Assembly (NCBI GenBank): GCA_017549765.1
Contig: JAFYNM010000008.1
Location: forward strand, 62,001-126,000
DNA length: 64,000 nt
Direction of reading: 5' to 3'
DNA from: Bacteroidales bacterium
Lineage (GTDB): Bacteria; Bacteroidota; Bacteroidia; Bacteroidales; WCHB1-69
In this document: piece after piece, positions 10,029-23,957 of the stretch
How the letters are laid out: each line of letters starts with the position of its first letter
Position numbering within the stretch: the first letter of the stretch is position 1
The notes under the pieces: generated by a model
Databases searched by the model: none
What the model saw: only the letters and a program-made list of their open reading frames with translations
Told to the model about the DNA's origin: nothing
Position numbers and translations under genes: made by a program

Positions 10029-11444
10029 CTAGTATCCTAAAATTTTCAGCATCGACTTGTAACTCTGTTCTTTAGCAAATAGTTTGGTGGTGATTTCACC
10101 CTCTTCGTCACGGTCGATGATGATGTGTTTCGGCGCAGGAGTGAGACAATGCTGTATGCCGCCGTATCCGCCGAGGGCCTCTTGATACGCGCCGGTGTTG
10201 AAGAGTCCGATGTACTGGATATCGTCGCTGTCCTCCCCGCGGTAGTTGCAGGAGTCGATCTGAGGCAGGAAAACAGCGTTGAGGTTGGCTTCTGCATTGT
10301 AGTAGTCCATGCTGTCGCAGGTAAGGCCGCCCAAGAAGACTCGCTCGTATTCCCTATCCCAGTGGTTGATGGCCAAGATGATGAACTGCTGGTTGAGGGC
10401 CCAGGAGTCGGGTAGGGTGGTCATGAAGGAACTGTCGATCATGTTCCATAACTCCCTGTCGTTCTGGCGCTTCTGTTGAAGAATGGAATAGAGGACCGCG
10501 CTGGCCTCGCCGACGGTGTAGGAGCCGAACTCGGTAAAGATCTCAGGTTCCATGACGCCCTCGCGCGTGCAGATCTGCTTGATCTGTGACACGATCTCCT
10601 CGGCCATGTATTCGTAGTCATATTCAAAGGAGAGGGAAGTCTTGATGGGGAAGCCGCCGCCGATGTTCAAAGAGTCCAACTCCGGGGCGATCTTCTTGAG
10701 GTCGCAATACAAATTGACACACTTCGTCAACTCATTCCAATAGTAAGCAGTGTCGTGGATGCCCGTGTTGATGAAGAAATGCAGCATCTTCAACTTGAAG
10801 TTCGGATTTTTCTTGATGCGCTCTTGATAAAAGGGAATGATGTCATTGTATCGGATGCCTAGACGGGAGGTGTAAAACTCGAAACGTGGCTCTTCTTCTG
10901 ATGCAATGCGGATGCCGACCTGACATGGCGTTGTCACCTGCTTCTCAATCAGGTCGAACTCCCGCTTGCTGTCTAAAACAGGAATTGTATTCACATAACC
11001 TTTCTCCAACATCATCGCAATATTGTCGATGTATGCCTGTTTCTTGCATCCGTTGCATATAATGTAGTTGCTCTTGTCGAACTGACCCAATTCATTCAGG
11101 GTTTCAATCAAATTCAAATCAAAAGCCGACGAAGTCTCCAGGTGAACATCGTTTTTCAACACTTCGGATAATACGAATTCGAAATGAGAACTTTTGGTAC
11201 AATAGCAGTAATGGTACGAAGCCTGGTAGTCTGCTTTGGCGATGGCAACGTTGAAGTAACGTTTCGCTTTATGGATGTTTTCCGAGATCTTGGGCAGGTA
11301 GGTGATACGTAACGGGGTGCCATACTGCTTGATGACATCCATGAGTGGTACATTGTTGAATAACAATTCGTTATCTTCTACGCTGAAGCCCTCTTGGGGA
11401 AACTCGTAGGTCTGCTGGATGAGGTCGATGTACTTGGTTTTCAT
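10029..11444 (-). CDS. PLP-dependent fold-III decarboxylase, probable arginine decarboxylase
   Basis: 471 residues. The N-terminal alanine-racemase-like barrel carries the Schiff-base lysine in YCYCTKSSHFEFV near residue 64. NIGGGFPIKT near 257 binds the PLP phosphate. The C-terminal beta domain has LTCDSMDYY near 375, where the cysteine-aspartate pair matches the catalytic pair of ornithine/arginine decarboxylases. It is shorter than the roughly 630-residue SpeA of Enterobacteria. An in-frame ATG at 11504 lies upstream of the promoter at 11472-11479, so the start is 11444. Substrate (arginine versus ornithine, lysine or diaminopimelate) is inferred from overall resemblance. Likely role: first step of polyamine synthesis. 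Confidence 0.75.
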   Translation of the reverse strand: MKTKYIDLIQQTYEFPQEGFSVEDNELLFNNVPLMDVIKQYGTPLRITYLPKISENIHKAKRYFNVAIAKADYQASYHYCYCTKSSHFEFVLSEVLKNDVHLETSSAFDLNLIETLNELGQFDKSNYIICNGCKKQAYIDNIAMMLEKGYVNTIPVLDSKREFDLIEKQVTTPCQVGIRIASEEEPRFEFYTSRLGIRYNDIIPFYQERIKKNPNFKLKMLHFFINTGIHDTAYYWNELTKCVNLYCDLKKIAPELDSLNIGGGFPIKTSLSFEYDYEYMAEEIVSQIKQICTREGVMEPEIFTEFGSYTVGEASAVLYSILQQKRQNDRELWNMIDSSFMTTLPDSWALNQQFIILAINHWDREYERVFLGGLTCDSMDYYNAEANLNAVFLPQIDSCNYRGEDSDDIQYIGLFNTGAYQEALGGYGGIQHCLTPAPKHIIIDRDEEGEITTKLFAKEQSYKSMLKILGY

Positions 11445-11471
11445 ACTGCTTTGATTTGAAATACGACGCCG

Positions 11472-11505
11472 CAAAGATATACAATTATTGAATCGGATGA
11501 ACAAA
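11472..11505 (-). promoter_or_regulatory. Full -33/-7 promoter for the arginine decarboxylase-like gene
   Basis: Minus strand: TTTG (11502-11505), 22-base spacer, then TATCTTTG (11472-11479). This matches TTTG-N19-23-TAnnTTTG well and places transcription start about 20 bases before the ATG at 11444. Confidence 0.75.
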
Positions 11506-11554
11506 AAAATGTATATCCAAGTGCTTCGGATTGATTTTTTTTGACAAATGTAAA

Positions 11555-12178
11555 TCAGTTATGATCGCGTCTGTTTTCGCATTCGCAGATGTTGGTGAAG
11601 AGAATGTCTGTCTTTGGAAGTAGTTGTTCCATGGCTTCATATTCCCATTTGGTTAGTGGAATTTGTCGTAAATCTAGGGTTTTTAATGTGTTTTGTAGAT
11701 GTGTAATGCTTTCTGGTAGAACATACATGGGGTTGTCCCATGCATCAATTGTGTGCAGACTTTTCAATTTTGCAATGGAATCAGGCAGTATCTCGATCAT
11801 ATTGCGGCTGATGATGAGCATTTCCAACTCATTCAATTCGCCTATACTGTTTGGCAATCTAAGGAGTCTGTTCCTGTCCAGGTTCAGTAAACGAAGATGC
11901 TGCAGCTTGGAGATATTCTGGTTTAACAGGTTTAGTTTACATCCTTTGACTGTGAGTTCCCGCAGTTCGGTCAATTGGAATATTTCTTCTGGCAGCGAAT
12001 CCTTTTGTGGAAGTTTTGTCAGCTTGAGGCGATATACCTTTTCTTTTGTAGCTAATGCTTCCTCAATGCTGGTATAGACTGTTCCCTTGTCATCGGGCCC
12101 ATAAAGCAAAAGGGGATGTTTCTGTCCGTATCCCAGGCATCCTGTTAGCATAATTGTCAATAGAAGAAATTTTCTCAT
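11555..12178 (-). CDS. Leucine-rich-repeat lipoprotein
   Basis: 207 residues. The N-terminus MRKFLLLTIMLTGC is a lipoprotein signal with lipobox LTGC, so it should be lipid-anchored after cleavage before Cys14. From about residue 50 come five to six LRR units of about 23 residues (for example LRLLNLDRNRLLRLPNSIGE and LEMLIISRNMIEILPDSIAK), of the shorter-repeat type found in Bacteroidetes surface proteins. Such domains bind protein ligands; nothing here names the partner. It is single-gene, with its own promoter, next to the restriction locus but on the opposite strand. Confidence 0.8.
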   Translation of the reverse strand: MRKFLLLTIMLTGCLGYGQKHPLLLYGPDDKGTVYTSIEEALATKEKVYRLKLTKLPQKDSLPEEIFQLTELRELTVKGCKLNLLNQNISKLQHLRLLNLDRNRLLRLPNSIGELNELEMLIISRNMIEILPDSIAKLKSLHTIDAWDNPMYVLPESITHLQNTLKTLDLRQIPLTKWEYEAMEQLLPKTDILFTNICECENRRDHN

Positions 12179-12246
12179 GCAACTTAACTTTTTATGTGGT
12201 ACATCCTTTTTATTTGAAAATTATTTGTCCGATTGTCTTGTGGCTG

Positions 12247-12254
12247 CAAATGTA
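12247..12254 (-). promoter_or_regulatory. -7 promoter element for the LRR lipoprotein gene
   Basis: Minus strand TACATTTG, 68 bases upstream of the ATG at 12178. It fits TAnnTTTG; no clear -33 TTTG at the expected distance. The rest of the 232-base gap before hsdM is AT-rich with no other gene. Confidence 0.5.
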
Positions 12255-12379
12255 GCATTATTTTTGGAAAGGTAATGGGTTTGATAGAAAATGAAAAGAC
12301 GCCTAGACAATGATTAATGATAGTCTGAGTTTATTATCTTTTTAAAACGAATATGTCCAAGATGTTTTGATAAAAAATG

Positions 12380-12387
12380 TATATTTG
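12380..12387 (+). promoter_or_regulatory. -7 promoter element for the type I restriction-modification operon
   Basis: TATATTTG followed by CTC, 23 bases before the ATG of hsdM at 12411. It is the only strong match found ahead of the plus-strand locus 12411-23957, so the whole locus may depend on it. Confidence 0.6.
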
Positions 12388-12410
12388 CTCTCTATTTATA
12401 GTTTGTATAT

Positions 12411-14450
12411 ATGATAACGAAGCAAGCTCTTGGTAACGTACTTTTCGGCATGGCAGACATCCTTCGCGACAAGGTGGAGGACTATAAATCGTATATTCTC
12501 TCTCTTCTGTTTTTCAAACGATTATCCGATAATTACCAGTGGGAGATAGAAGATGCGACAGAGCATTTCAAAGTGGATTATGTGCGGGAACCTTCACCTC
12601 GCGAGTTGGAAGTCATCACCAAGAAAAAACATGATTTTCAGATTCCCGACGGTTGTTTCTGGGAAGATGTGCGTAAAGCACCCATTGATAAGAAAAACGC
12701 GACTTTGGATGCAGCGGTGAATGCTATCGCAGACCAGAATGTGGACCAAAACGGCAAATACATCTTGAAAGGTATCATCAATACGGTGCGGTGGAATGAA
12801 CCTGCCCCTGACGGCTCCGGCGGCAAGAAACTTGACCCCGAAGTGCTGACCAACCTCATCAACTACCTGAGCGCAGTGGATTTGAGCAACAAGAATGTGA
12901 CCGTGGATGTGCTGGGTGATGCATATGAATACCTGATCAAGCGGTTTGCCGACGAAAACAAGGGCGGCACCATGGCGGGACAGTTCTACACGCCGCAAGA
13001 GGTGGTGGACATCATTGTGCGCTACCTAAAACCGCAGAAAGGCGAGACGGTGTATGATCCCACTTGCGGTTCCGGCGGTTTCCTGCTGAATGCCGCTAAG
13101 TACGCCCGCGCCAGCTATGACACACAAAAGAGCATCCGACTTTTCGGACAGGAATTGGTGTGGAACACGTGGGCCATCTGCAACATCAACATGATTCTGC
13201 ATGGCTTGGATGCCCGCATTGAGCAGGGCGACACCATCCGCGACCCGAAATTCAAGGACGAAGAGAATGAGCTGGAACTGCGCACCTTCGACAAGGTTAT
13301 GGCCAATTTCCCTTTTTCGATGGAGAACTGGGCACAGAACGGAGAACCAAAAAAGGACAAAAATGGCAACACAAAACCGAAGAAGGACGGCACCCCGCAG
13401 ATTGAATACAAAAAGGAGTTTACGGATGCCTATAACCGTTTGATTTACGGCATTCCACCATATAGCAACGGCGACTTTGCCTTCTTGCAGCATATCATCG
13501 CTTCGTTGGATGAGAAAGGCAAGGCCGGTGTGGTGTGTCCGCAGGGTGTTTTGTTCCGCGGACAGCCCGAAAAGACCGAAGAGGAAGACGGCCAGAACCG
13601 CAAGGCTGATGTGGAATACCTGATTCGACGCGGTTTCCTGCAAGGAGTGGACTTCTCGCAGCATACCAACATCATTGATGCCATTGTGGTGCTGCCGGGC
13701 AACCTATTTTACGGTACGACCATCCCCGGTGCCATCATCTTTTTCGACAAAAACAAGCCCGAGGAGCGCAAAGACAAGGTGCTGATGGTGTATGCCGCCA
13801 AGAAGGGCTGGTGCCGCGAAGAGGCCAACATGAGCGTGTTGGAACCACAGGATGTGCTGCGCATCTCCACCATTTTGGAAAGTTGGGGCGATGTGGAAAA
13901 GGCCAAGCATTGGATCAAACTCCAGAAAAACCGGTTGCATATCCGCATTGAAGAGGAGTTGGATTTCCAGCTTTCCGAAATTGAAAACGATACCAAAGAA
14001 GAGATTGCCAAGCAAACCGATAAGTTGGCCAAAGCCCAATTGGCGGTACAAAACAAAGTGGATAATAACAAGAAGCCAACTGCCGGAGAGTTGAAGGCCG
14101 TGGAGGCTGCGCAGAAAGCGTTGGACAAATTGCTGGCCGACAAGACGGCACGAGAGAACGCCGCCAACGAAAAAGCCGTGAAGCAGCGCAAAGCCATTGC
14201 CGACGTGGAGGCGGAACTTTTGCAGATGCTGGCTGACCCCGAACTGCGCAAGCGTTATTTCTCCATCGTGGATATGGGCGAGATTGAGGAGAACGAGTTC
14301 AACCTCAACATCCCGCGCTATGTGGATACCTTCGAGCCGGAAGAGCAGATTGATTTGAAGCAAGCCATTGCCGATTTCAAGGCGGCGATGCAAGCGGAAA
14401 CAACGGTGGAGAAGGAGTTGGAGAAACTGTTGGAAACAATTGATAATTAA
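12411..14450 (+). CDS. hsdM: Type I restriction-modification DNA methyltransferase subunit HsdM
   Basis: 679 residues. A helical HsdM_N domain (about 5-165) is followed by the N6-adenine methyltransferase core: GQFYTPQEVVD near 188, the SAM-binding DPTCGSGGF near 216, and motif IV as NFPF near 298 in place of the common NPPF/Y. A long lysine/glutamate-rich coiled coil (about 500-610) forms the C-terminal contact with HsdS. With HsdS it methylates adenine in a bipartite target; with HsdR it forms the restriction complex. First gene of the locus, 12 bases before the AlbA_2 gene. Confidence 0.95.
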   Translation: MITKQALGNVLFGMADILRDKVEDYKSYILSLLFFKRLSDNYQWEIEDATEHFKVDYVREPSPRELEVITKKKHDFQIPDGCFWEDVRKAPIDKKNATLDAAVNAIADQNVDQNGKYILKGIINTVRWNEPAPDGSGGKKLDPEVLTNLINYLSAVDLSNKNVTVDVLGDAYEYLIKRFADENKGGTMAGQFYTPQEVVDIIVRYLKPQKGETVYDPTCGSGGFLLNAAKYARASYDTQKSIRLFGQELVWNTWAICNINMILHGLDARIEQGDTIRDPKFKDEENELELRTFDKVMANFPFSMENWAQNGEPKKDKNGNTKPKKDGTPQIEYKKEFTDAYNRLIYGIPPYSNGDFAFLQHIIASLDEKGKAGVVCPQGVLFRGQPEKTEEEDGQNRKADVEYLIRRGFLQGVDFSQHTNIIDAIVVLPGNLFYGTTIPGAIIFFDKNKPEERKDKVLMVYAAKKGWCREEANMSVLEPQDVLRISTILESWGDVEKAKHWIKLQKNRLHIRIEEELDFQLSEIENDTKEEIAKQTDKLAKAQLAVQNKVDNNKKPTAGELKAVEAAQKALDKLLADKTARENAANEKAVKQRKAIADVEAELLQMLADPELRKRYFSIVDMGEIEENEFNLNIPRYVDTFEPEEQIDLKQAIADFKAAMQAETTVEKELEKLLETIDN

Positions 14451-14462
14451 TAGTTTACGAGA

Positions 14463-16199
14463 ATGGGAGAATTCGACATACATACATTGCAACATCAGCC
14501 CGAAGGGCAGCAGTTCGACCGCAAGAGCTTTCGGATTGATGCAAAATCATTGGCGGTGATACTGGTTGCTTTTGCCAATGCCGATGGTGGCGATGTGGTG
14601 ATAGGCATAGAGGATGACGGCCGTATTACGGGCATCAACGGGAACGACGACCATCTGAATGAGTTGCTCAGAGCCCCTTTCGATTTCTGTGTCCCCTCGG
14701 TAAACGTTGAGGTGCATTTCATTGATTGCACTGATGCAAATGGAACTCCCAATCGGGTTTTAGTGATGCATGTTGAACCCAGCATGCAGGTGCATGCCAA
14801 CCAAGCCGACGACGCTTTCTATCGGGTTGGCGACAAGTCGAAAAAACTGAATTTTGAGATGCGTATGCAGTTGTTCTATGCCAAAGGCGGCCGCTATTAC
14901 GAAGACGAGCCTGTTTATGGAGCAACTATGGACGACTTAGACCTTGACTATGTTAAGGAGTTTTGCGACAAAATAGGTTATGCCAAAGATGCCGAGACTT
15001 ACCTGCGTACCAACAAAGGCTATGTTACCACTGCGAACGGAGCGGATAAAGTTTCCGGGGCGGCCATCTTGTTGTTCGGCAAGGACCCGCAGAAGTTTTT
15101 CCAACGTGCACGAATCCGCATTGTACGTTACGACGGCGATGAGGAACGTTTTGGACGGGAAATGAACGTGGTGAAAGATGTGTCGTTTGAGGGGCGCATT
15201 GTGGAGATGACGCAAAAGGCCATTGATTTTGTGGACACACAGATAAAGGAATACAGCTTTTTGGGCGAGGACGCCCGATTTGTCACCATTCCCCAGTATC
15301 CGCCTTTCTGCTGGACAGAGCTCATCGTGAATGCCGTGGCTCACCGCGACTACAGCATATTGGGCACGGACATCATAGTGAAAATTTTCGACCACCATTA
15401 TGTGGTGGAAAGTCCGGGCATATTGCCGGGCATGGTGCGCATCGACAATATACGGCAGATGCACTTCTCGCGCAATCCGAAAATTGTCCAGTTTATGCAG
15501 CAGTACAAGCTGGTGAAGGAGTTCGGCGAAGGCGTTGACCGTATGTTCCGCGAAATGGCCGAAGCCGGCAACCCTGCGCCGGAGTATAAGCAGATAGATT
15601 TTATGCTGAAGGTGAAACTCACCTCGGCAATGAGGGAAGAAAAAGATACCGCGAAAAAAAGTAACATGAAAAGTAACATGATACTCGAAAAAAGCAGCGT
15701 CAAAAACGAGCATCTTATCATAGAAACCATCAAGGCAAACCCTTCGGCTCCGATTCCTATTTTTCAGAAAATCACAGGATTGTCAAGAAGTGGTATTTGG
15801 AAGATTCTCAATAGGTTGCGCGAAAATGAAGTTGTCCGCCGCATCGGTTCCGACAGAGATGGTTACTGGGAAATTGTGGAGAAAAGCGAAATGGAAGGCG
15901 CATTGAAAAGCAAGAAAAAAAATAAAAATGGCATTGCAAATGACACTGTAAATAGCACTGAAAATGGCACTGAAAATGCCCTAGAAAATGACACTGTAAA
16001 CGACCGAATGGATAATGAAAAAAAGTTGTTGTTTGCAATTATAGAGCATCCCAACTATACATACGAGCAATATGCGGAACTGATTCATATTTCCAGAAGG
16101 ACAATTGCAAGGATGTTGAAGAATTTGCATGAAAACGGCATCATCCGCCGCGTGGGTCCCGATAAGGGTGGCCATTGGGAAGTAATTGGGAATGAATAA
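14463..16199 (+). CDS. AlbA_2 (Schlafen-like) / HATPase_c_4 protein with duplicated winged helix
   Basis: 578 residues. An AlbA_2 domain (about 10-130, with LVAFANADGGDVVIGIEDDG) precedes a RecG-like ATPase region with ELIVNAVAHRDYSI near 281 and VKEFGEGVDRMFREM near 350. Two winged-helix units follow: about 420-480 (SRSGIWKILNRLRENEVVRR) and about 515-577 (SRRTIARMLKNLHENGIIRR). Their matching order and matching ends (GYWEIVEK, GHWEVIGN) show a duplication. An Asn/Thr-rich linker joins them, encoded by six 12-base repeats. Such proteins often sit inside type I loci and are thought to be nucleic-acid-binding regulators or accessory defence factors. The role here is inferred from position only. 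Confidence 0.85.
   Translation: MGEFDIHTLQHQPEGQQFDRKSFRIDAKSLAVILVAFANADGGDVVIGIEDDGRITGINGNDDHLNELLRAPFDFCVPSVNVEVHFIDCTDANGTPNRVLVMHVEPSMQVHANQADDAFYRVGDKSKKLNFEMRMQLFYAKGGRYYEDEPVYGATMDDLDLDYVKEFCDKIGYAKDAETYLRTNKGYVTTANGADKVSGAAILLFGKDPQKFFQRARIRIVRYDGDEERFGREMNVVKDVSFEGRIVEMTQKAIDFVDTQIKEYSFLGEDARFVTIPQYPPFCWTELIVNAVAHRDYSILGTDIIVKIFDHHYVVESPGILPGMVRIDNIRQMHFSRNPKIVQFMQQYKLVKEFGEGVDRMFREMAEAGNPAPEYKQIDFMLKVKLTSAMREEKDTAKKSNMKSNMILEKSSVKNEHLIIETIKANPSAPIPIFQKITGLSRSGIWKILNRLRENEVVRRIGSDRDGYWEIVEKSEMEGALKSKKKNKNGIANDTVNSTENGTENALENDTVNDRMDNEKKLLFAIIEHPNYTYEQYAELIHISRRTIARMLKNLHENGIIRRVGPDKGGHWEVIGNE
15657..15680 (+). repeat. Two tandem 12-base units inside the AlbA_2 gene
   Basis: AAAAGTAACATG occurs twice, encoding KSNM twice at the border between the ATPase region and the first winged helix. 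The unit length is a multiple of three, so copy change would keep frame. Confidence 0.9.
15927..15998 (+). repeat. Six tandem 12-base units in the AlbA_2 gene linker
   Basis: Six consecutive 12-base units start with AATGGCATTGCA and end with AATGACACTGTA. Their consensus is AATGrCACTGwA. They encode four-residue blocks of the form N-(G/D/S)-T-x between the two winged helices. Units 2 and 6 are identical, the others differ by one to four bases. Confidence 0.92.
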
Positions 16200-16219
16200 T
16201 GTACAATTGACAATGAACA

Positions 16220-17458
16220 ATGATGGAGAAAATAGGCAAATACATAACCAACTATATAAAGGGTAAAACGCCGAAAGTTTTGTTCGACAGCGAATTGTTG
16301 GACACCTTGCCGTATTTGTCCCCTGACTATTTAAGAGGTGTTTCCAACCCAGAATTGTATGCAAAGCAAGATGCAAAAACTATTGTGATAGATGACGGTG
16401 AGGTGATTGTGTTGTGGGATGGCAGTAATGCTGGTGAAATATTGATTTCCAAGAAGGGGATTTTAGCATCAACAATGACGATGCTAAAATTTGATAAAAC
16501 AGAGATAAACAAAGCGTATTTCGGTTATTCTTTCCAGAACTTGGAGTATATTTTGAAAGCAAAAACGGCAGGTTCTGGCATTCCTCACGCAGACAAAGGC
16601 GTTATTAGCAAATTGGAATTTTACAAGCCCTCTCTTCCCGAACAGACCGCCATTGCCAATATTCTCTCGAAGGTGGACGAGGCGATAGCGGCGGTGCAGG
16701 GCAGCATTGCCGCCGCCGAGCGGCTGAAGAAGAGCCTGATGCAGAACCTCCTCACCGGCCGCATGAAACCCGACGGCACACTCCGCAAAGATGATGAGTT
16801 CTATATGGACGAGAAGTTCGGAAAAGTGCCGAAGGGGTGGGAAGTGAAAAGATTAAAAGACATTTGCTTAAATTCTGGTGATTATGGAGCCAATGCTTCA
16901 GCAATTGACTATGATGAAACCAAGCCACGTTTTATCAGAATTACAGATATTGACGATTTTGGTCAACTTTTGGAGGATGGGAAAGCTGGAATGGCTGGCG
17001 ACAACTATTCGAAATACCTGTTGGAAGAAGATGATTTTCTTTTCGCAAGAACAGGTGATACGGTTGGAAAGTCTCTTTTGTACAAAAAAGAAATGGGACT
17101 TGCAGTTTATGCAGGCTATTTAATAAAATTCTCGTTTGATAAGAGCAAGGTTTTGCCAGAGTATTTTGATTTGATTGCAAAATCGGAGTTCTTTGAAGCA
17201 TTTAAAATAGCGATGAAACGTGTTGGTGCAAAACCGAATATAAATTCGAGAGAATACTGTTCTTTTAGGTTCCTGTTGCCATCAGATACTGAAGAACAAA
17301 AAGAGATTTATAGAAAATTTGCTAATATAGATAAATCACAAAAGTCGAAACAACAAAAAATCACCACCCTTGAGCGGTTGAAGAAATCGCTGATGCAGAA
17401 TCTGCTGACGGGGAGGGTGAGAGTAAAAGAAAAAACATTTAAATATTATAACATATGA
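16220..17458 (+). CDS. hsdS: Type I restriction-modification specificity subunit HsdS
   Basis: 412 residues with the classical two-fold plan. Target-recognition domain 1 spans about 1-135 and the first conserved helical spacer about 140-185. TRD2 spans about 195-365 (opening with KVPKGWEVKRLKDI) and the second spacer about 370-405. The two spacers share RLKKSLMQNLLTGR, marking the internal duplication. The TRDs differ and should read the two halves of a bipartite site. TRD1 begins directly at KIGKYITNYIKGKTP without the W-x-x-x-x-L preamble of TRD2. No site-specific recombinase or second hsdS is present in the window. The last 4 bases overlap the kinase gene. Confidence 0.93.
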   Translation: MMEKIGKYITNYIKGKTPKVLFDSELLDTLPYLSPDYLRGVSNPELYAKQDAKTIVIDDGEVIVLWDGSNAGEILISKKGILASTMTMLKFDKTEINKAYFGYSFQNLEYILKAKTAGSGIPHADKGVISKLEFYKPSLPEQTAIANILSKVDEAIAAVQGSIAAAERLKKSLMQNLLTGRMKPDGTLRKDDEFYMDEKFGKVPKGWEVKRLKDICLNSGDYGANASAIDYDETKPRFIRITDIDDFGQLLEDGKAGMAGDNYSKYLLEEDDFLFARTGDTVGKSLLYKKEMGLAVYAGYLIKFSFDKSKVLPEYFDLIAKSEFFEAFKIAMKRVGAKPNINSREYCSFRFLLPSDTEEQKEIYRKFANIDKSQKSKQQKITTLERLKKSLMQNLLTGRVRVKEKTFKYYNI

Positions 17459-18519
17459 CAGATAGTGCAGCGAATAATTTGAAAGGAATAACCTTAAAAA
17501 CGGGTTGGACAGTTATTGAAAAAATCACTAAGGATGATAATTCTACAGGTTCCGTATTTTCAATTTGTTATAAGGTAAAGAAAAACGATAACATATGCTT
17601 TCTAAAAGCTTTTAATTTCACACCTTTTTTCCAATTATCTGAACAAAGTGGGCAAAACCGTTCTATTACTGATATCATTGGCGATATGATTAATGCTTAT
17701 AAATATGAAAGAGATCTTTCTAAACACTGTAAAATGGGACATGTGACCAAGGTCGCTTTCGTCATTGATTCTGGAGAAGAAATTATTCCAAACTTTTCTA
17801 TCAATATTGTTCCATATCTGATATTTGAGCTAGCTGACGGTGATGTCAGGCACAACCTTCAATATTCAGAAAGATTAGACCTTGCATGGAAATTGAATTC
17901 ATTACGTGAAGTTGCTACTGGGCTCAAACAATTACATAACGTAAATGTTTCGCATCAAGATTTGAAGCCATCAAATATTTTACTTTTTGACAAGGAGTCA
18001 AAAATTGGAGATCTAGGACGGTCTATGTGTAAAGATATTGAAAACCAATACAATAATCAAATATATTCTGGAGATTGGAATTATGCACCGCCAGAATTAA
18101 TGTATGGTTATTATGAACAAGATTGGGAAAAACGAGCTTACGCTACCGATTGTTATCTATTGGGGAGTATGGTTGTTTTTTATTTTGCAGGAATCAGCAT
18201 GTCTGCATTATTGCTAAAACATATTCCAAACGAATTTAGATGGGAGAATTATAGAGGTTCTTTTGATGAAGTAAAACCCTATTTGATCGCTGCCTTCGGT
18301 GATGCTATGACTGAATTTTCTAATTGTATTGAGTTGGAGTATTTTCGAAATGAGCTAAAACAAATAGTAGAATATCTTTGTTTCCCATTTCCGGAAAAAA
18401 GAGGACATCCCAAGAATATTGCAAGTGTTGGAAATAGTTATAGTCTTGAGCGATTTATTACAAAATTTGAATTATTAAGAAGAAAAGCAGAATTAAATAT
18501 AAAAACATGGCAGCAATAA
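17455..18519 (+). CDS. Serine/threonine protein kinase-like protein nested in the restriction operon
   Basis: 354 residues with a recognisable and apparently active eukaryotic-like kinase fold. The ATP lysine is in CFLKAF (K51) and the alpha-C glutamate probably in YKYERDL. The catalytic loop is HQDLKPSN (D169, K171, N174). DLG at 186-188 stands for DFG, APPE at 211-214 for APE, and DCYLLG at 232-237 is the F-helix aspartate. The glycine-rich loop (DDNSTGSV) is loose. There is no membrane segment or extra sensor domain. ATG overlaps the hsdS stop (ATGA), and its own end overlaps the TPR gene by 13 bases, so translation of the three is probably coupled. The DNA is much more AT-rich than hsdM or hsdR, a sign of separate acquisition. 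Confidence 0.85.
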   Translation: MTDSAANNLKGITLKTGWTVIEKITKDDNSTGSVFSICYKVKKNDNICFLKAFNFTPFFQLSEQSGQNRSITDIIGDMINAYKYERDLSKHCKMGHVTKVAFVIDSGEEIIPNFSINIVPYLIFELADGDVRHNLQYSERLDLAWKLNSLREVATGLKQLHNVNVSHQDLKPSNILLFDKESKIGDLGRSMCKDIENQYNNQIYSGDWNYAPPELMYGYYEQDWEKRAYATDCYLLGSMVVFYFAGISMSALLLKHIPNEFRWENYRGSFDEVKPYLIAAFGDAMTEFSNCIELEYFRNELKQIVEYLCFPFPEKRGHPKNIASVGNSYSLERFITKFELLRRKAELNIKTWQQ

Positions 18520-20054
18520 TTGAAGAAAAAGAACGCAGGGTTATTCCCAATTGGCGTTCATTTGAGATCACAGCTTCTTTAGGAGAATTAAATGCAAATA
18601 AATTAAAAAGCAAGGATTTTTCTAAATTATCTATTGATTCATACATACGAGATTTTCGGAACAATTCCAGTGTTCCATTTGCTGCCGATTTGATAAGTGC
18701 TGCTTTAGTAAATGGATTCGATGACAATAACAATGTTAAAGATGCAGCACAATTCTTGTTAAACAATAAACAAAAAATAACCACGTCGCAAGAAGAATTG
18801 GCATATAGAATACTTAATGGTCCAATTGGTTCACAGGATGTAATTGAGGGTATTACAATTAAACAATTAAACGATTGTATAACTAATCAAGACTTTATAA
18901 AAAGAATTAGAGTGTTAAAACAGCATCTTATCGAGTTCCCATATAATCCAATTGCATGGGTTGAGCTGTCTCGGTGTTATTCTATTCTTGGACAAGAGGG
19001 AAAAGCTATGCAGACCATGAAATATGCCGTGCAATTGTCTCCTGATAATAGATTCGTAATTAGAAGTGCCACGCGATTATTTACTCATTATGACGAACTT
19101 GATTTAGCACAATATGTGTTGCGTCATAGCGGAATGTTACGAAAAGATCCATGGTTGCTTTCTGCAGAAATATCTGTAAATACACTGAAAGGGAAAGTTT
19201 CAAATTTACTAAAACGAGGAATTGAAATCATCGATTCAAACAACTATTCTCCTTTTTCAACAACCGAATTAGCTGCATCTATTGGTACTGTTCATTTGTT
19301 GGCAGGAGATAGAAAGAAAAGCAGAAAATTGTTTACCCAATCACTTGTTTCCCCTAATGATAATTCAATTGCCCAAGTTGAATGGGTCTTGAATAGCAAA
19401 GACAAGAGTTTGTTTGATAAAGGCGCAATTAACATCAAAACGCAGTATAGTTATGAAGCTATGGCAATATATAATTTCTATAATAATAATCTAATAGATG
19501 CTTTGAATAATGCATGCCAATGGTTTTGTGACATGCCGTTTTCAAAAAGGCCAGTTATGATGGGAAGTTGTGTTGCTGATTTACTAAACAATAAAAATCT
19601 TGCAATAACTTTTTTAAAAAAAGGCCTAATGTCCAATTCCAATGATTGTCAATTATTGAACAATATTGCATACTACTATGCTTTGGAAAACAATCTTGAC
19701 GAAGCAAATAAATACATAGAACGAATTGATCACAAACTAGTTGGAGAGGTAGATGGTATTTGCATAACGGCAACAAAAGGACTGATCAAATTCCGTGAAA
19801 AAGATTATGAATGTGGTCGTGAATTATATCTCCGTGCAATTGATAGCACCACCATGTTAAGAAATAAAGAACTTAACTATAAAGCGATTTTGAATTATAC
19901 GAGAGAAGAAATTATGGCTAAGTCGGATCATATAGAACCTGCTATGAATTTAATAAGTGAAATGAAAGATATAGATAATATGAGTATTGAGATCAAAAAA
20001 ATTCATTCCGAAGTTGTTGAGTTATATCAAAAGAATAAAGAAAGTAATATTTGA
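18507..20054 (+). CDS. TPR-like helical-repeat protein paired with the kinase
   Basis: 515 residues, all-helical, soluble. TPR-like units are visible: PIAWVELSRCYSILGQEGKAM near 145, LLNNIAYYYALENNLDEANKY near 390, and a TKGLIKFREKDYECGRELYLRAI-type unit near 425. The first 130 residues have no family I recognise. It starts inside the last 13 bases of the kinase gene and shares its AT-rich composition, so the two look like one inherited unit. Kinase plus scaffold or substrate is a reasonable guess; an abortive-defence role is possible but unproven. It ends before a 194-base spacer leading to hsdR. Confidence 0.75.
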   Translation: MAAIIEEKERRVIPNWRSFEITASLGELNANKLKSKDFSKLSIDSYIRDFRNNSSVPFAADLISAALVNGFDDNNNVKDAAQFLLNNKQKITTSQEELAYRILNGPIGSQDVIEGITIKQLNDCITNQDFIKRIRVLKQHLIEFPYNPIAWVELSRCYSILGQEGKAMQTMKYAVQLSPDNRFVIRSATRLFTHYDELDLAQYVLRHSGMLRKDPWLLSAEISVNTLKGKVSNLLKRGIEIIDSNNYSPFSTTELAASIGTVHLLAGDRKKSRKLFTQSLVSPNDNSIAQVEWVLNSKDKSLFDKGAINIKTQYSYEAMAIYNFYNNNLIDALNNACQWFCDMPFSKRPVMMGSCVADLLNNKNLAITFLKKGLMSNSNDCQLLNNIAYYYALENNLDEANKYIERIDHKLVGEVDGICITATKGLIKFREKDYECGRELYLRAIDSTTMLRNKELNYKAILNYTREEIMAKSDHIEPAMNLISEMKDIDNMSIEIKKIHSEVVELYQKNKESNI

Positions 20055-20069
20055 TAATTGTCAATTGAA

Positions 20070-20207
20070 ATGAAAACTTCCATCCGCTTCTATAACGACC
20101 GCGAGGTGTCTTCGGTGCCTTCGACAAGCTCAGGCACCGTAATAGAAAAACAAACTTCCACACCGAGAAGACCGGTGGTTGAGCCTGTCGAAACCACCGC
20201 AGAATAA
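20070..20207 (+). pseudogene. Remnant of a Bro-N-type gene interrupted by a REP-like pair
   Basis: A 45-codon open frame starts MKTSIRFYNDREV. These 13 residues match, from memory, the start of Bro-N domain proteins that often accompany type I restriction genes (SIRFFNDREVRAVWD and onward). The match stops at codon 13. Everything after it is low-complexity translation of two hairpins (20113-20139, 20173-20199), ending in tandem TAA. The simplest reading is that most of the gene was lost and the palindromic element sits in its place. A genuine 45-residue peptide is the alternative. Confidence 0.5.
20113..20199 (+). repeat. Pair of inverted REP-like hairpins
   Basis: Hairpin A (20113-20139) has 8-bp arms CGGTGCCT/AGGCACCG around the 11-base loop TCGACAAGCTC. 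Hairpin B (20173-20199) has 8-bp arms CGGTGGTT/AACCACCG around GAGCCTGTCGA. Reverse-complemented, B reads CGGTGGTT-TCGACAGGCTC-AACCACCG. The loops then differ at one base, while three stem positions differ with compensating changes. A head-to-head pair with a 33-base spacer is the layout of BIME-type REP elements. The TTCGACAGGCTCA core is a dispersed repeat I recall from many bacterial genomes. Confidence 0.85.
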
Positions 20208-20248
20208 TAATTGTACATTGTACATTGTTAATTGTAAATTAAAAAGTT

Positions 20249-23200
20249 ATGTCAAAATTATCCGAAGCGAAATCCGTTGAAACAAAAGTCACCGAATGGC
20301 TGTCCCAGATTGGATGGGAATACCGTTCGGTGGAGGATTTGAAGCAATATAACCGTCTGCAAACTAATGTGGTGATTGAACCGATATTGGTGGAGAAGGT
20401 GATGGAGCTTAACGGCATCAGCCAGCAGGCGGCCAAGTCGGCGGTGGAGACGCTGCTCAACAACTTGCGCAATCCTATTCCCATCGAGGGCAACGAGAAG
20501 TTCCTCAACCAATTGTCGGAAGGCGTAACCATTACCATCGACCGGAAAGACCGCACTGTCCGTTTCATCGACTTTGAAGATATTTGGCAGAATTCGTTCA
20601 TCGTCACCAACCAATATGCGGTGCAGCAGGTGCGGGCAGACATTTGCCTGTTGGTGAATGGTATCCCGTTGGTGCCCATCGAAGCCAAGCAATGCGCACG
20701 GCGCGGCACCAACTGGCTCGAAGGTGTGCGTCAGTTCCAGACCTACGACCGCCGAAGCGACAAGCTGTTCATCAGTCACCTCTTTGGTGTGGCCTGCAAC
20801 GGACGGCTGAGCAAATACGGCATTCCGGGCGCATCGGCATCGTACTTCAACGAGTGGAAGGATTCGATTATCGCCAACAAGTACGACAATCCGCTACTGA
20901 AACCCGAAAACGACCTTTGCCGTGTTTACAAAGACGAGGATGACGGATTGATGCACTTCGATGTGGAACGGCTTCCAAACGGGCAATTGCTGGAGCAGAT
21001 GAAGTTCGGCATTATTGGCTTGCTACAGCCGGAGCGGGTGCTTGACATTTTACAACATTTCATCGTATTTGAGCGCGATGATGGCAGGATTATCAAGAAA
21101 GTGGCGCGTTACCAGCAGCTTCGGGCCGCCAACAAGATTGTAGATAGGGTGGTGCAGTCGGAAAAAGCTCAAGGCGTGATTTGGCACACGCAAGGTTCGG
21201 GCAAGTCACTCACCATGCTTTACACTGCCTATAAACTCCGTAAGACGGAAGCCCTTGCCGACCCGACCGTTTTCATTGTGGTCGATCGTAAGGATTTGAA
21301 AGACCAGATGGGCGATACCTTCTTTGATTGCGAGTTTCCCAACGCGCGCATCGTGCTGAGCGTGGGCGATTTGAAAAGCATTCTTCGCGACAAACCTGCA
21401 GGAGTATTTATTACCACCATACAGAAGTTCAGAGAGTTAGGCGAAGTCAAAGACGAGCGTGGCAATGTGGTGGTGCTCATTGACGAGGCACACCGCACCG
21501 AATATGGCGACTATCAGATGGAACTGCGGGCGGTGCTGCCCAACGCCAAACGCTTCGCCTTCACGGGAACGCCGATTCCGAAGACTCATCAGGAGTTCGG
21601 CACCAAAGACGAAAGTGGCAAAGTGGAGTATTATTTGGACAAGTACAGCGTCATTGATGCCATCAGCGATGGGGCTACCAAGCCCATACGCTACACCTTG
21701 GGACCATCGCAGTGGTTCTTGGACAAGGAGAACCTGAAGAAAGGTTACGAAGAGATTACCGCCGATTTGGAGGAAGATCAGAAACGGTTGGTGGAACAGC
21801 GTGTACAGCCGTGGAAAACCCTGATGAAGAAGCCCGAACGCATCAAGACTTTGGCCGCCGATATTGCCAATGATTTCCGCGAGCGTTTGGAACCGCAGGG
21901 CTTCAAGGCGCAGGTAGTGGCCGTTGACAAAGAGGCTTGCGTGTTGTATTACAATGAATTGTTGAACTATTTCGACCCATCGGAAATCCGTATCATCTTT
22001 TCCACGGGGCAATACGAAACAGGCGAGCGTTATGATCTCTTTTCACCTTTCTACATTGATGACAAAGAACGCAAACGTCTGATAGACAACTTTAAGAAAA
22101 GGATTACGGAAGAGGAAATCGCCAAAGGCAATAACTTGAAAATCTTCATTGTCTGCAACATGTTGCTTACGGGCTTCGATGCCCCGATTGAGCAGACCAT
22201 GTATTTAGACAGTCCGCTGCGTGATCACAACCTGTTGCAGGCGGTGGCCCGTACCAACCGCCCGTATGATTATGGCGAAGGGGAAATGAAACTTTCAAAG
22301 GAATTTGGCCGCATTGTGGATTATGTGGGTGTGTTTCAAAACTATAAGGAAGCCTTGAACTACGATCCTGCCGACATTGGCGAATTTGAGGATGTGGATG
22401 CGCTGTTAAAAGAGTTCCCTAAAGAATTGGATAAGGCCTTTGAGCCGTTTGCAGCAATCAAATTGGAAGACAGCTACGAATGCGAGATGGCCATCATCCG
22501 CAAGCTGAGCGAGATTGACCACGGTCAGTTTGAGAACCGTTTCCATGGGGTGGTGCAGTTGTGGGAAGCCATTTCTCCCAATCCGGGTTTGCGCCCATTC
22601 CGCAACCAATACCTGTGGTTGGTTACCATCTACGAACTGTATTTGGAAGAGTTCCGTCGTGTGAATTTCGATGCGGAGTTTTATGCCGCCCAAACGCGCA
22701 AATTGTTGGAAGAGAGCGCCACTTTGCTCAATTTCCGTGGCCATCTGCCCGAAATCACCATCGATGCGGATTATCTCACCAAATTGGAGGAAACCAGACT
22801 TTCGCCTTCCGACAAGGCCGAGAAAATCATCCGCGACATCGAGACGATGATTCGCACTAACCAGAATAACAGTGCCATTTACATTGAGTTTCAGGAGCGT
22901 TTGGATGCGTTGATTCAGATGAAAAACGCCAATGCACTTGAAATCGAAGGACTTCTTAAGAAACTCAGCGAACTTTACACCGAAGTGGATGAGGCGATTG
23001 AGATTCCCAAGAAGATGGGTTTTGCCGACAAAGGGACGTTTGAGATATTCCAGATCATCAAAAACGAACTGTCCGATTTCGACGAGCAGTTGGTGCGTGA
23101 GTTTTCCAACGAGCAGGCGCAACGGATACTATCCAAGATTTACATTGGTTGGCAGGAGGTACCGCAGGAATACAACCGTTTCAAAGCCGACATGGAACTG

Positions 23201-23302
23201 TTGGCCGCCAATCCGAAATACGAATCCTTGAATCTCGACTTTGACGGTCCGTTGGGCGATACTTTGATGAAATCCATCCTTCAGAATTTCAGCTTGAACT
23301 AA
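20249..23302 (+). CDS. hsdR: Type I restriction endonuclease subunit HsdR
   Basis: 1017 residues. The N-terminal nuclease has the PD-(D/E)xK half-motif PLVPIEAKQ near 142-150 with preceding acidic residue in ADICLLVNG. The translocase follows: Walker A HTQGSGKS near 312, DEAH near 412, FTGTPIP near 437, and motif VI QAVARTNRPYDYG near 670. A helical C-terminal region (about 780-1017) would bind the HsdM/HsdS methylase. It should cut unmethylated DNA after ATP-driven translocation. GC content returns to that of hsdM, unlike the kinase/TPR insert between. One base separates its stop from the metalloprotease start. Confidence 0.95.
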   Translation: MSKLSEAKSVETKVTEWLSQIGWEYRSVEDLKQYNRLQTNVVIEPILVEKVMELNGISQQAAKSAVETLLNNLRNPIPIEGNEKFLNQLSEGVTITIDRKDRTVRFIDFEDIWQNSFIVTNQYAVQQVRADICLLVNGIPLVPIEAKQCARRGTNWLEGVRQFQTYDRRSDKLFISHLFGVACNGRLSKYGIPGASASYFNEWKDSIIANKYDNPLLKPENDLCRVYKDEDDGLMHFDVERLPNGQLLEQMKFGIIGLLQPERVLDILQHFIVFERDDGRIIKKVARYQQLRAANKIVDRVVQSEKAQGVIWHTQGSGKSLTMLYTAYKLRKTEALADPTVFIVVDRKDLKDQMGDTFFDCEFPNARIVLSVGDLKSILRDKPAGVFITTIQKFRELGEVKDERGNVVVLIDEAHRTEYGDYQMELRAVLPNAKRFAFTGTPIPKTHQEFGTKDESGKVEYYLDKYSVIDAISDGATKPIRYTLGPSQWFLDKENLKKGYEEITADLEEDQKRLVEQRVQPWKTLMKKPERIKTLAADIANDFRERLEPQGFKAQVVAVDKEACVLYYNELLNYFDPSEIRIIFSTGQYETGERYDLFSPFYIDDKERKRLIDNFKKRITEEEIAKGNNLKIFIVCNMLLTGFDAPIEQTMYLDSPLRDHNLLQAVARTNRPYDYGEGEMKLSKEFGRIVDYVGVFQNYKEALNYDPADIGEFEDVDALLKEFPKELDKAFEPFAAIKLEDSYECEMAIIRKLSEIDHGQFENRFHGVVQLWEAISPNPGLRPFRNQYLWLVTIYELYLEEFRRVNFDAEFYAAQTRKLLEESATLLNFRGHLPEITIDADYLTKLEETRLSPSDKAEKIIRDIETMIRTNQNNSAIYIEFQERLDALIQMKNANALEIEGLLKKLSELYTEVDEAIEIPKKMGFADKGTFEIFQIIKNELSDFDEQLVREFSNEQAQRILSKIYIGWQEVPQEYNRFKADMELLAANPKYESLNLDFDGPLGDTLMKSILQNFSLN

Positions 23303-23303
23303 C

Positions 23304-23957
23304 ATGCTTCCAGATCATTATACCGTTTGTCGCCGAGAGGTCAAGAATGCCCGTCTGCGTGTCAACGAAGACGGCAGTGTTCGTCTGTTCGTACCTCTTT
23401 CTTTCACAGACGAGGACATCGAGAAACTACTTGAAAGAAAAAAAGGATGGATAGCGTCAAAACAGAAGTTCTTCCAACAGAAATCCAAAATCCAGCTCCG
23501 ACGCAATGAGCTCCTGCTTTTCGGCAATCGTTATGCATATTACTACTCTGCACAATACAAAAACAAAGTGGTAGTCAATCACGAAAGCAGGACCATCCAA
23601 GCGCAACGTGACCTGCTGGATTCAGCTGTTCAGGAAAAATGGCTGAAAAGTGTGGCTAAAAGACATATTACCGAACGAGTTGAAACCTTGTCTGAAGCCT
23701 GGCTCTTGCCTTACAACAAACTCTATATCCGGAGTCAGAAACGGAAATGGGGCAACTGCTCCTCCGAAAAAAACATCTCCTTCAACTGGCGGTTGATTAA
23801 AGCACCAACGTTTGTCCTGGATTATGTCATTATTCACGAATTGTGTCACACCATCATCATGAAACACAATTCCCATTTCTACACGATGCTTCGTTCTCAT
23901 TGTCCCGATTGTGAAGCGGCGCAGAAGTGGTTAGATAGGTTTGGGAATAGTTTGTAA
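23304..23957 (+). CDS. YgjP/SprT-like (DUF45) zinc metallopeptidase-type protein
   Basis: 217 residues. The zinc-binding helix HELCHTIIMKHNSHFY (about 179-194) gives the HExxH pair plus a downstream histidine, as in YgjP/DUF45 proteins. RKWGNCSS at about 149-156 is the second family signature. It starts one base after hsdR and is therefore probably the last gene of the restriction operon. DUF45 genes are common next to hsdR in many bacteria, but their biochemical role there is not established. No signal peptide. It ends 44 bases from a convergent gene. Confidence 0.88.
   Translation: MLPDHYTVCRREVKNARLRVNEDGSVRLFVPLSFTDEDIEKLLERKKGWIASKQKFFQQKSKIQLRRNELLLFGNRYAYYYSAQYKNKVVVNHESRTIQAQRDLLDSAVQEKWLKSVAKRHITERVETLSEAWLLPYNKLYIRSQKRKWGNCSSEKNISFNWRLIKAPTFVLDYVIIHELCHTIIMKHNSHFYTMLRSHCPDCEAAQKWLDRFGNSL

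Follow-up and report, generated by a model that had tools for sequence, protein, structure and literature searches.

Within a 64,000-nucleotide stretch of contig JAFYNM010000008.1 (positions 62,001 to 126,000; hereafter the window, numbered from its first letter) from the Bacteroidales bacterium assembly GCA_017549765.1, a gene for a eukaryotic-type protein kinase and a gene for a tetratricopeptide repeat (TPR) protein are located between hsdS and hsdR of a type I restriction-modification (RM) operon. The two genes are a new copy of PDC-M71, a catalogued candidate defence family, and the larger finding is the hsdS-hsdR gap itself, which holds varied cargo in orthologous operons. We think it probable that the pair is a candidate defence module carried as exchangeable cargo in this slot, with a kinase effector triggered by the TPR protein, and that it works without the HsdMSR enzyme of the window. 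Family membership, tight pairing, intact catalytic residues, varied cargo in orthologous operons and occurrence in unrelated restriction loci are established at the level of sequence.

The kinase and TPR proteins of the window belong to PDC-M71

The kinase gene (17455..18519, + strand) encodes 354 residues and overlaps hsdS by 4 bp, and the TPR gene (18507..20054, + strand) encodes 515 residues and overlaps the kinase gene by 13 bp. An earlier note, made from the letters of this DNA, had described the pair at this place between hsdS and hsdR, and its coordinates, overlaps and motifs were right. Its author knew of no named defence system with this arrangement, which has to be corrected, since the pair is PDC-M71 of PADLOC. 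The kinase matched the PDC-M71A model (PDLC04780; 4.9e-153, 507.6 bits, residues 3-349), and the product of the adjoining gene matched the PDC-M71B model (PDLC04781; 1.7e-177, residues 1-510), so that by sequence the pair is a PDC-M71 member. The Pfam matches were Pkinase (7.7e-16) and TPR_2 (2.3e-07), respectively. According to the parts of PMC12255303 and PMC12988326 that were available, the PDC entries come from the "guilt-by-embedding" screen of Payne et al. (bioRxiv 2024.01.29.577857).

The window kinase contains the motifs HQDLKPSN, DLG and APPE and the conserved positions Lys51, Glu85, Asp169, Asn174 and Asp186, which we take to be the catalytic Lys, the Glu, the HxD Asp, the Asn and the DFG-type Asp; the predicted residue set of an active kinase of the Pkinase clan is thus complete. 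Among 58 full-length kinases (a set including the three near-copies L065, L066 and L075), Lys51 was kept in all, Glu85 in 57, and Asp169, Asn174 and Asp186 in 55. The AlphaFold2 models showed a kinase fold with a mean predicted local distance difference test (pLDDT) score of 92.6 and a helical-repeat solenoid with a pLDDT of 93.5.

The two genes form an accessory unit

A scan with a profile made from the TPR alignment found 58 loci in genomes of many phyla and 5 in viral contigs. After six copies (L033, L035, L065, L066, L075 and L093) had been dropped from these 63 loci (L033-L095), 57 were counted. In 54 of the 57, the gene immediately before the TPR gene, in the same orientation, matches the kinase, indicating that kinase and TPR form a two-gene unit; one of the 54, L089, holds fragments only. 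The three unpaired loci are either cut by a contig end (L042 and L082) or decayed (L090). Three plasmids, from Arthrobacter, Rhizobium and Deinococcus, also carry the pair, and a phage collection gave no match to it. A scan of genome contigs with a single protein as query found no relatives, whereas the alignment query did.

In the family to which the window belongs, only 2 of 104 genomes carry the pair, which is therefore accessory and not core. Acquisition as a unit, as earlier proposed, agrees with these counts, and the same figure answers the one phylogenetic objection named beforehand, that the kinase might be a conserved core gene. Across the phylum, 4 of 395 sampled genomes have the pair (E ≤ 1e-15), one of the four being distant. 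The class-wide scan matched 24 of 395 genomes at E ≤ 0.001, with E < 1e-100 only in the window's own genome and G087; the other 22 matches (E 7.8e-8 or weaker) were taken as generic TPR proteins and excluded from the count.

The tight packing of these two-gene units and their presence on plasmids beside mobility genes would also suit a toxin-antitoxin addiction pair. The kinase would then arrest growth as the toxin and be neutralised by the TPR protein, and any defence would be no more than a by-product. A toxin gene in first position is the less usual order in toxin-antitoxin pairs, and the kinase is upstream in all 54 linked loci; moreover, three loci keep the pair with a pseudokinase. We regard this explanation as decidedly unlikely.

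Two side results concern neighbouring gene arrangements. An 864-residue open reading frame in Methylobacterium (L072 and L076) was considered as a kinase-TPR fusion and rejected: its N-terminal part has no kinase-model match and looks like an out-of-frame extension, and a separate kinase gene is present. In G521 (phylum-scan match 3.8e-17), a 350-residue frame is followed by a 597-residue TPR frame (L101 7899-10757). The shorter locus L098 of this genome gave weak profile matches (kinase 8e-09, TPR 6e-15), and these distant kinase-TPR neighbours are possibly a sister family.

Copies of the pair occur in restriction loci of unrelated kinds

By our own reading, in which several subunits were named by eye, eight copies are inside restriction operons. 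The window and L099 are type I with the order M-S-kinase-TPR-R; HsdM and HsdR of L099 are only 29% identical to those of the window, yet the S-kinase-TPR-R order is identical. The order is R-M-S-kinase-TPR in L036, R-GNAT-MS-kinase-TPR in L037 and kinase-TPR-S-M in L059, which has type I M and S genes and whose genome gave no HSDR_N match. The remaining three are L032 (AlwI with GmrSD), L038 (EcoRV-type) and L034 (an IIG-like fragment at a contig end). L058, whose adjoining gene is HmaB-like, and L047, with what by eye resembles a type III system about 2 kb downstream, were left out of the count. Because the eight restriction loci are of unrelated kinds, several separate moves are needed to explain them. 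On the 53-row tree, the restriction label requires 6 changes, 5 of them forced by well-supported branches. The supported clade of the window has 11 rows (10 Bacteroidota and one Gammaproteobacteria metagenome-assembled genome (MAG)), and 7 of the 11 are in restriction operons of different kinds. In L099, the region upstream of hsdM (15632-17486) also holds a 287-residue nucleotidyltransferase-like gene and a 342-residue gene that by eye look like an AbiE-type toxin-antitoxin system.

For proximity statistics we used 53 named genomes, from which duplicate and partial loci had been removed. A methylase domain was found within 5 kb of the pair in at least 5 of the 53, versus 0.37 expected (P 4e-5), and in at least 4 of 52 when the window was left out (P 5e-4); weak methylase matches near the pair may be missed in these counts. 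This proximity does not separate a restriction link from a general clustering of defence genes, fitting both alike. The 95 nearest neighbour genes (window excluded) matched Methylase_S four times, phage integrase four times and N6_Mtase twice in Pfam. They matched 259 PADLOC models, compared with 8 for 66 genes more than 6.5 kb away, a contrast that these counts overstate because a single HsdS can match a large number of models (of the 25 listed, 22 are for type I specificity subunits).

These restriction loci bear on two explanations that tie the pair to the enzyme. In the first, the pair would act as a sentinel for the restriction enzyme: once HsdR or HsdMS is disabled by an anti-restriction protein of a phage, the kinase would bring the cell to a halt. 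The accessible parts of the PrrC literature give the precedent: prrC lies inside the type IC operon prr, whose enzyme keeps PrrC silent until T4 Stp frees it (PMC2610378, PMC12707154, PMC3874165), and one review, in the part available, classes PrrC and PARIS together as RM guardians. The clade in which 7 of 11 members sit in several types of restriction operon, and an AriA (PARIS)-like ATPase (1.3e-26) in the same slot of one orthologous operon, L110, are consistent with it. The linked enzymes, however, are unrelated (type I of at least two families, AlwI, EcoRV-type and IIG-like), which makes a shared contact surface hard to see. By our reading most copies have no linked restriction operon, and, among the matches listed at the limits applied, N6_Mtase is absent from 7 and HSDR_N from 13 of the 53 genomes (many of them MAGs and perhaps incomplete). 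Overall we place this explanation, which is the previously suggested back-up response to a failure of restriction and has its precedent in PrrC, on the unlikely side.

In the second explanation, HsdR, HsdM or HsdS would be a substrate of the kinase, and phosphorylation would restrain cleavage or permit it (restriction alleviation). The 4-bp overlap with hsdS and the equal position in L099 would fit such a regulator, whereas other genes take the place of the pair in orthologous hsd operons and, by our reading, most pairs have no hsd neighbour. Kinase control of restriction, the other earlier hypothesis, is unlikely as a general role, because by the same reading a restriction operon surrounds the pair in only 8 of the 53 tree rows; we consider it very improbable for the window as well.

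The hsdS-hsdR gap holds varied cargo in orthologous operons

Close homologues of the window HsdR were found in nine further genomes, seven from the family and two from elsewhere in the class. The hsdS-hsdR gap was read in eight of these nine relatives (G418, partial and with a stop, was left out), giving nine operons with the window; the contig of L130 (G400) includes only the first 317 HsdR residues. In the operons compared (L130 excluded), identity to the window was 68-96% for HsdM and 63-97% for HsdR but only 37-47% over the aligned part for HsdS, and five other operons have an HsdR 88-97% identical to that of the window.

None of the nine operons has an empty gap, and eight different cargo sets occupy it. 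The window has the kinase and TPR genes. L110 has genes for a 556-residue protein, the AriA-like ATPase, and proteins of 263 and 119 residues. L111 and L130 share dGTPase, Fic and Schlafen genes (L130 by gene lengths and sequence starts). L112 has a 714-residue protein (weak HATPase match), proteins of 316, 112 and 306 residues (the last with a weak Mrr match), Fic and GIY-YIG. L113 has a metallophosphoesterase, and L114 a 698-residue NACHT-associated protein (NA-iREase2) with RelA/SpoT. L117 has an AAA_5 ATPase with an McrC-like protein, and L118 has DUF2971 (PDC-S31) with the RecD-like PDC-S68. Six of the eight sets, including that of the window, have a PADLOC match at 1e-5 or better, and a seventh, in L117, is McrBC-like by Pfam, so that the defence setting proposed for the pair is supported: related operons carry mostly defence-like genes in the same slot. 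The AriA call in L110 concerns the ATPase alone, which also matched PtuA and other ATPase models, and its 263-residue partner has no family match. The only cargo homology among the compared operons (L130 excluded) is that of Fic between L111 and L112.

The low guanine-cytosine (GC) content of both genes had been noted before, and correctly: each has 32.8%, versus 50.6% for hsdM and 49.6% for hsdR (hsdS 40.4%; window mean 50.5%). As a special sign of the pair it does not stand, because most cargo of close relatives is equally AT-rich. In the five closest operons (the window and L110-L113), GC is 28-34% in 11 of the 16 cargo genes and 38-48% in the other 5. The cargo of L114 has 30%, that of L117 and L118 has the same GC as hsdR, and the pair of L099 has 49-51% vs 56%.

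A second variable position lies between hsdM and hsdS. The window, L111 and L130 have a Schlafen gene there, whereas L110, L112 and L113 have one of YhcG type and L114, L117 and L118 have none. The Schlafen protein of the window has a 71% homologue in L111 and L130; the YhcG-type gene, tested on L110 only, matches PDC-S02.

Three slot proteins, those of 556 and 263 residues in L110 (7293-8960 and 10141-10929) and that of 714 residues in L112 (5813-7954), have no solid Pfam or PADLOC match; by position alone they are candidates that the slot would add to the defence genes. In L118, hsdM appears split into two reading frames (10704-12722), and its restriction system may therefore be inactive; the cargo frames of this operon are open.

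The variety of cargo raises the idea that the whole gap guards the enzyme, that is, that swappable cargo is co-transcribed with the restriction enzyme and fires when the latter is inhibited or evaded. We regard this as unlikely. If it were true, every operon would join a single restriction specificity to a single interchangeable system for suicide or second-line defence (kinase and TPR, AriA-like, NACHT-associated with RelA/SpoT, Fic, McrBC and others), and the kinase-TPR pair would be a phosphorylation-based analogue of PrrC. No paper describing an exchangeable hsdS-hsdR slot was found with queries that did not include Bacteroidota, preprints and most subscription journals being outside the scope of the search.

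A modular reading of the pair and the points against it

In our reading, the pair is a modular system against phages, made of a kinase effector and a TPR partner. The TPR protein would bind the kinase, a sign of infection, or both; the kinase would then be switched on and phosphorylate proteins of the host or the phage, which would halt growth or the production of phage. From the restriction operon the pair would gain its transcription and a means of being transferred. The module should work without the window HsdMSR, because most copies have no adjoining restriction operon.

Several points weigh against this reading. By our reading, most copies stand alone, 45 of the 53 tree rows being outside restriction operons and only 8 inside. 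At the PADLOC level, the cargo of L114 (at 1e-5) and L117 (at 1e-8) gave no match, and the literature search for the term PDC-M71 found no paper and no experiment on the family. No toxin domain was seen in the pair, and the common TPR fold tells nothing of what is sensed. The kinase is in two pieces in L054, L062, L071 and L074. The kinases of L046, L052 and L055, from uncultured Bacteroidales or Bacteroidia, lack the catalytic Asp, the Asn and the DFG-type Asp and look like pseudokinases, so catalysis is not essential everywhere. Finally, in L026 (2852-12088) the genes after the pair resemble, by eye, an ABC transporter cluster for branched-chain amino acids, an unusual setting for defence genes; this cluster also encodes a methyltransferase, a radical SAM protein and a 486-residue protein without a Pfam match.

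The pseudokinases form a small clade with the motifs HNIT and A-L-H (L046 8919-9974, L052 5020-6063, L055 8718-9764). The gene directly upstream of the L046 pseudokinase matches DUF2971 (1.1e-4), and its counterparts in L052 and L055 are similar by eye; DUF2971 (PDC-S31) is also hsd-slot cargo in L118.

A Fic gene stump precedes hsdR

Directly after the TPR stop codon, 54 bp (20055..20108, + strand) correspond to the leader and initial codons of a Fic gene (PDC-S04 family), with 98% identity to L112 and 96% to L111 and L130; all three relatives have an intact Fic gene in their hsdS-hsdR slot. The slot of L110 contains two shorter stumps of the same Fic start sequence. The simplest reading is that the window slot once held a Fic gene that was lost on a change of cargo, and the stump thus suggests cargo turnover. 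The nine orthologous operons with eight insert sets, one of them with a stump of a probable earlier insert, are a natural series, in which the question whether restriction-embedded genes are guards or passengers becomes testable through insert swaps in one background.

A pattern for the Fic start matched at 9 sites, spread over 7 of the 103 family genomes searched, and the reversed-pattern control found 0. Five of the 9 sites are starts of Fic reading frames; for two of these (G475 and G413), the stretches read contain no hsd gene. Of the other four sites, which lack a Fic frame, three are in the slot (G000, and two in G482) and the fourth (G413) is 0.3 kb from a contig end. A role of the stump as a slot-specific recombination element or junction was considered and rejected, as genes of this Fic family are found elsewhere than beside hsd genes too; the sequence is the start of a Fic gene and not a dedicated junction.

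The rest of the cargo-hsdR spacer (20109..20248, + strand), compared at the DNA level, has its last 48 bp in common with L110. It contains two short palindromic repeats at 20120 and 20181, of the GCCTTCGACAAGCTCAGGC and GGTTGAGCCTGTCGAAACC type; several copies of these repeats are in the slot of L112, some inside the GIY-YIG gene.

Other genes of the window operon

The seven-gene stretch has the order hsdM, Schlafen, hsdS, kinase, TPR, hsdR, YgjP, with every gene on the + strand, and HsdM, HsdS and HsdR each have their own domains, as in a type I RM operon. hsdM (12411..14450) encodes a 679-residue methyltransferase subunit (Pfam N6_Mtase 2e-77, HsdM_N 7e-19), hsdS (16220..17458) a 412-residue specificity subunit (Methylase_S 1.1e-23), and hsdR (20249..23302) a 1017-residue restriction and translocase subunit (HSDR_N 1.4e-30, TIGR00348 2e-162). 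Alignment of the 3' end of hsdS showed that its final codons extend past the conserved ...LLTGRVRVK end. The Schlafen gene between hsdM and hsdS (14463..16199) encodes a 578-residue protein with AlbA_2, HATPase_c_4 and winged-helix regions by Pfam. It includes five overlapping 28-nt copies spaced by 12 nt (15925-16000), that is, a 12-bp tandem repeat, in the linker between the two winged-helix regions, where length variation is possible.

After hsdR follows a 217-residue YgjP-like metallopeptidase gene (23304..23957; PF01863 1.8e-49). YgjP homologues also follow hsdR in L117 and L118, and DNA similarity covers all or part of the YgjP gene in L110-L114. A promoter scan gave 31 consensus matches, compared with 22.8 (sd 4.8) in shuffled sequence, a difference that carries no weight for the shared promoter proposed earlier.

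Comparison with known systems

The proteins of the window match PDC-M71 over nearly their full length and, like it, are encoded by two adjoining genes embedded in a restriction system; no difference was found. We know of no tested phenotype for this family. Stk2, PD-T4-6 and MAD6 have a kinase domain in common with the window kinase, and the matches to them were only 38-50 bits (38.3 for Stk2 and 49.7 for PD-T4-6), compared with 507.6 for PDC-M71A. The window did not qualify as MADS, as MAD6 reached 36.6 bits with a cut-off of 460 and the MAD2 methyltransferase 61.3 with a cut-off of 720.

In the accessible part of PMC12255303, the RRDM island of enteropathogenic Escherichia coli (EPEC) carries DarTG2 between hsdS and hsdR, and its authors suggest a potential recombination hotspot. 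The island resembles the window in the slot and in a downstream metallopeptidase gene (M48 there, YgjP-like here), and differs in its ADP-ribosyl toxin-antitoxin cargo and its RptR regulator. A DNA search of E. coli genomes with this hsdR found nothing.

PrrC of EcoprrI is likewise an effector encoded inside a type I hsd operon. The prr operon has the order hsdM-hsdS-prrC-hsdR. PrrC was not among the matches listed for the window proteins, the two cargo proteins being a kinase and a TPR protein. In the available parts of the literature, PrrC is one ABC-ATPase anticodon nuclease, said to occur always in linkage with a type IC system, whereas the kinase and TPR pair is mostly not linked to RM. 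The idea of a slot between hsdS and hsdR thus has precedents, as far as these sources go, in prrC, cited there with a 1990 title, and in the DarTG2 of EPEC.

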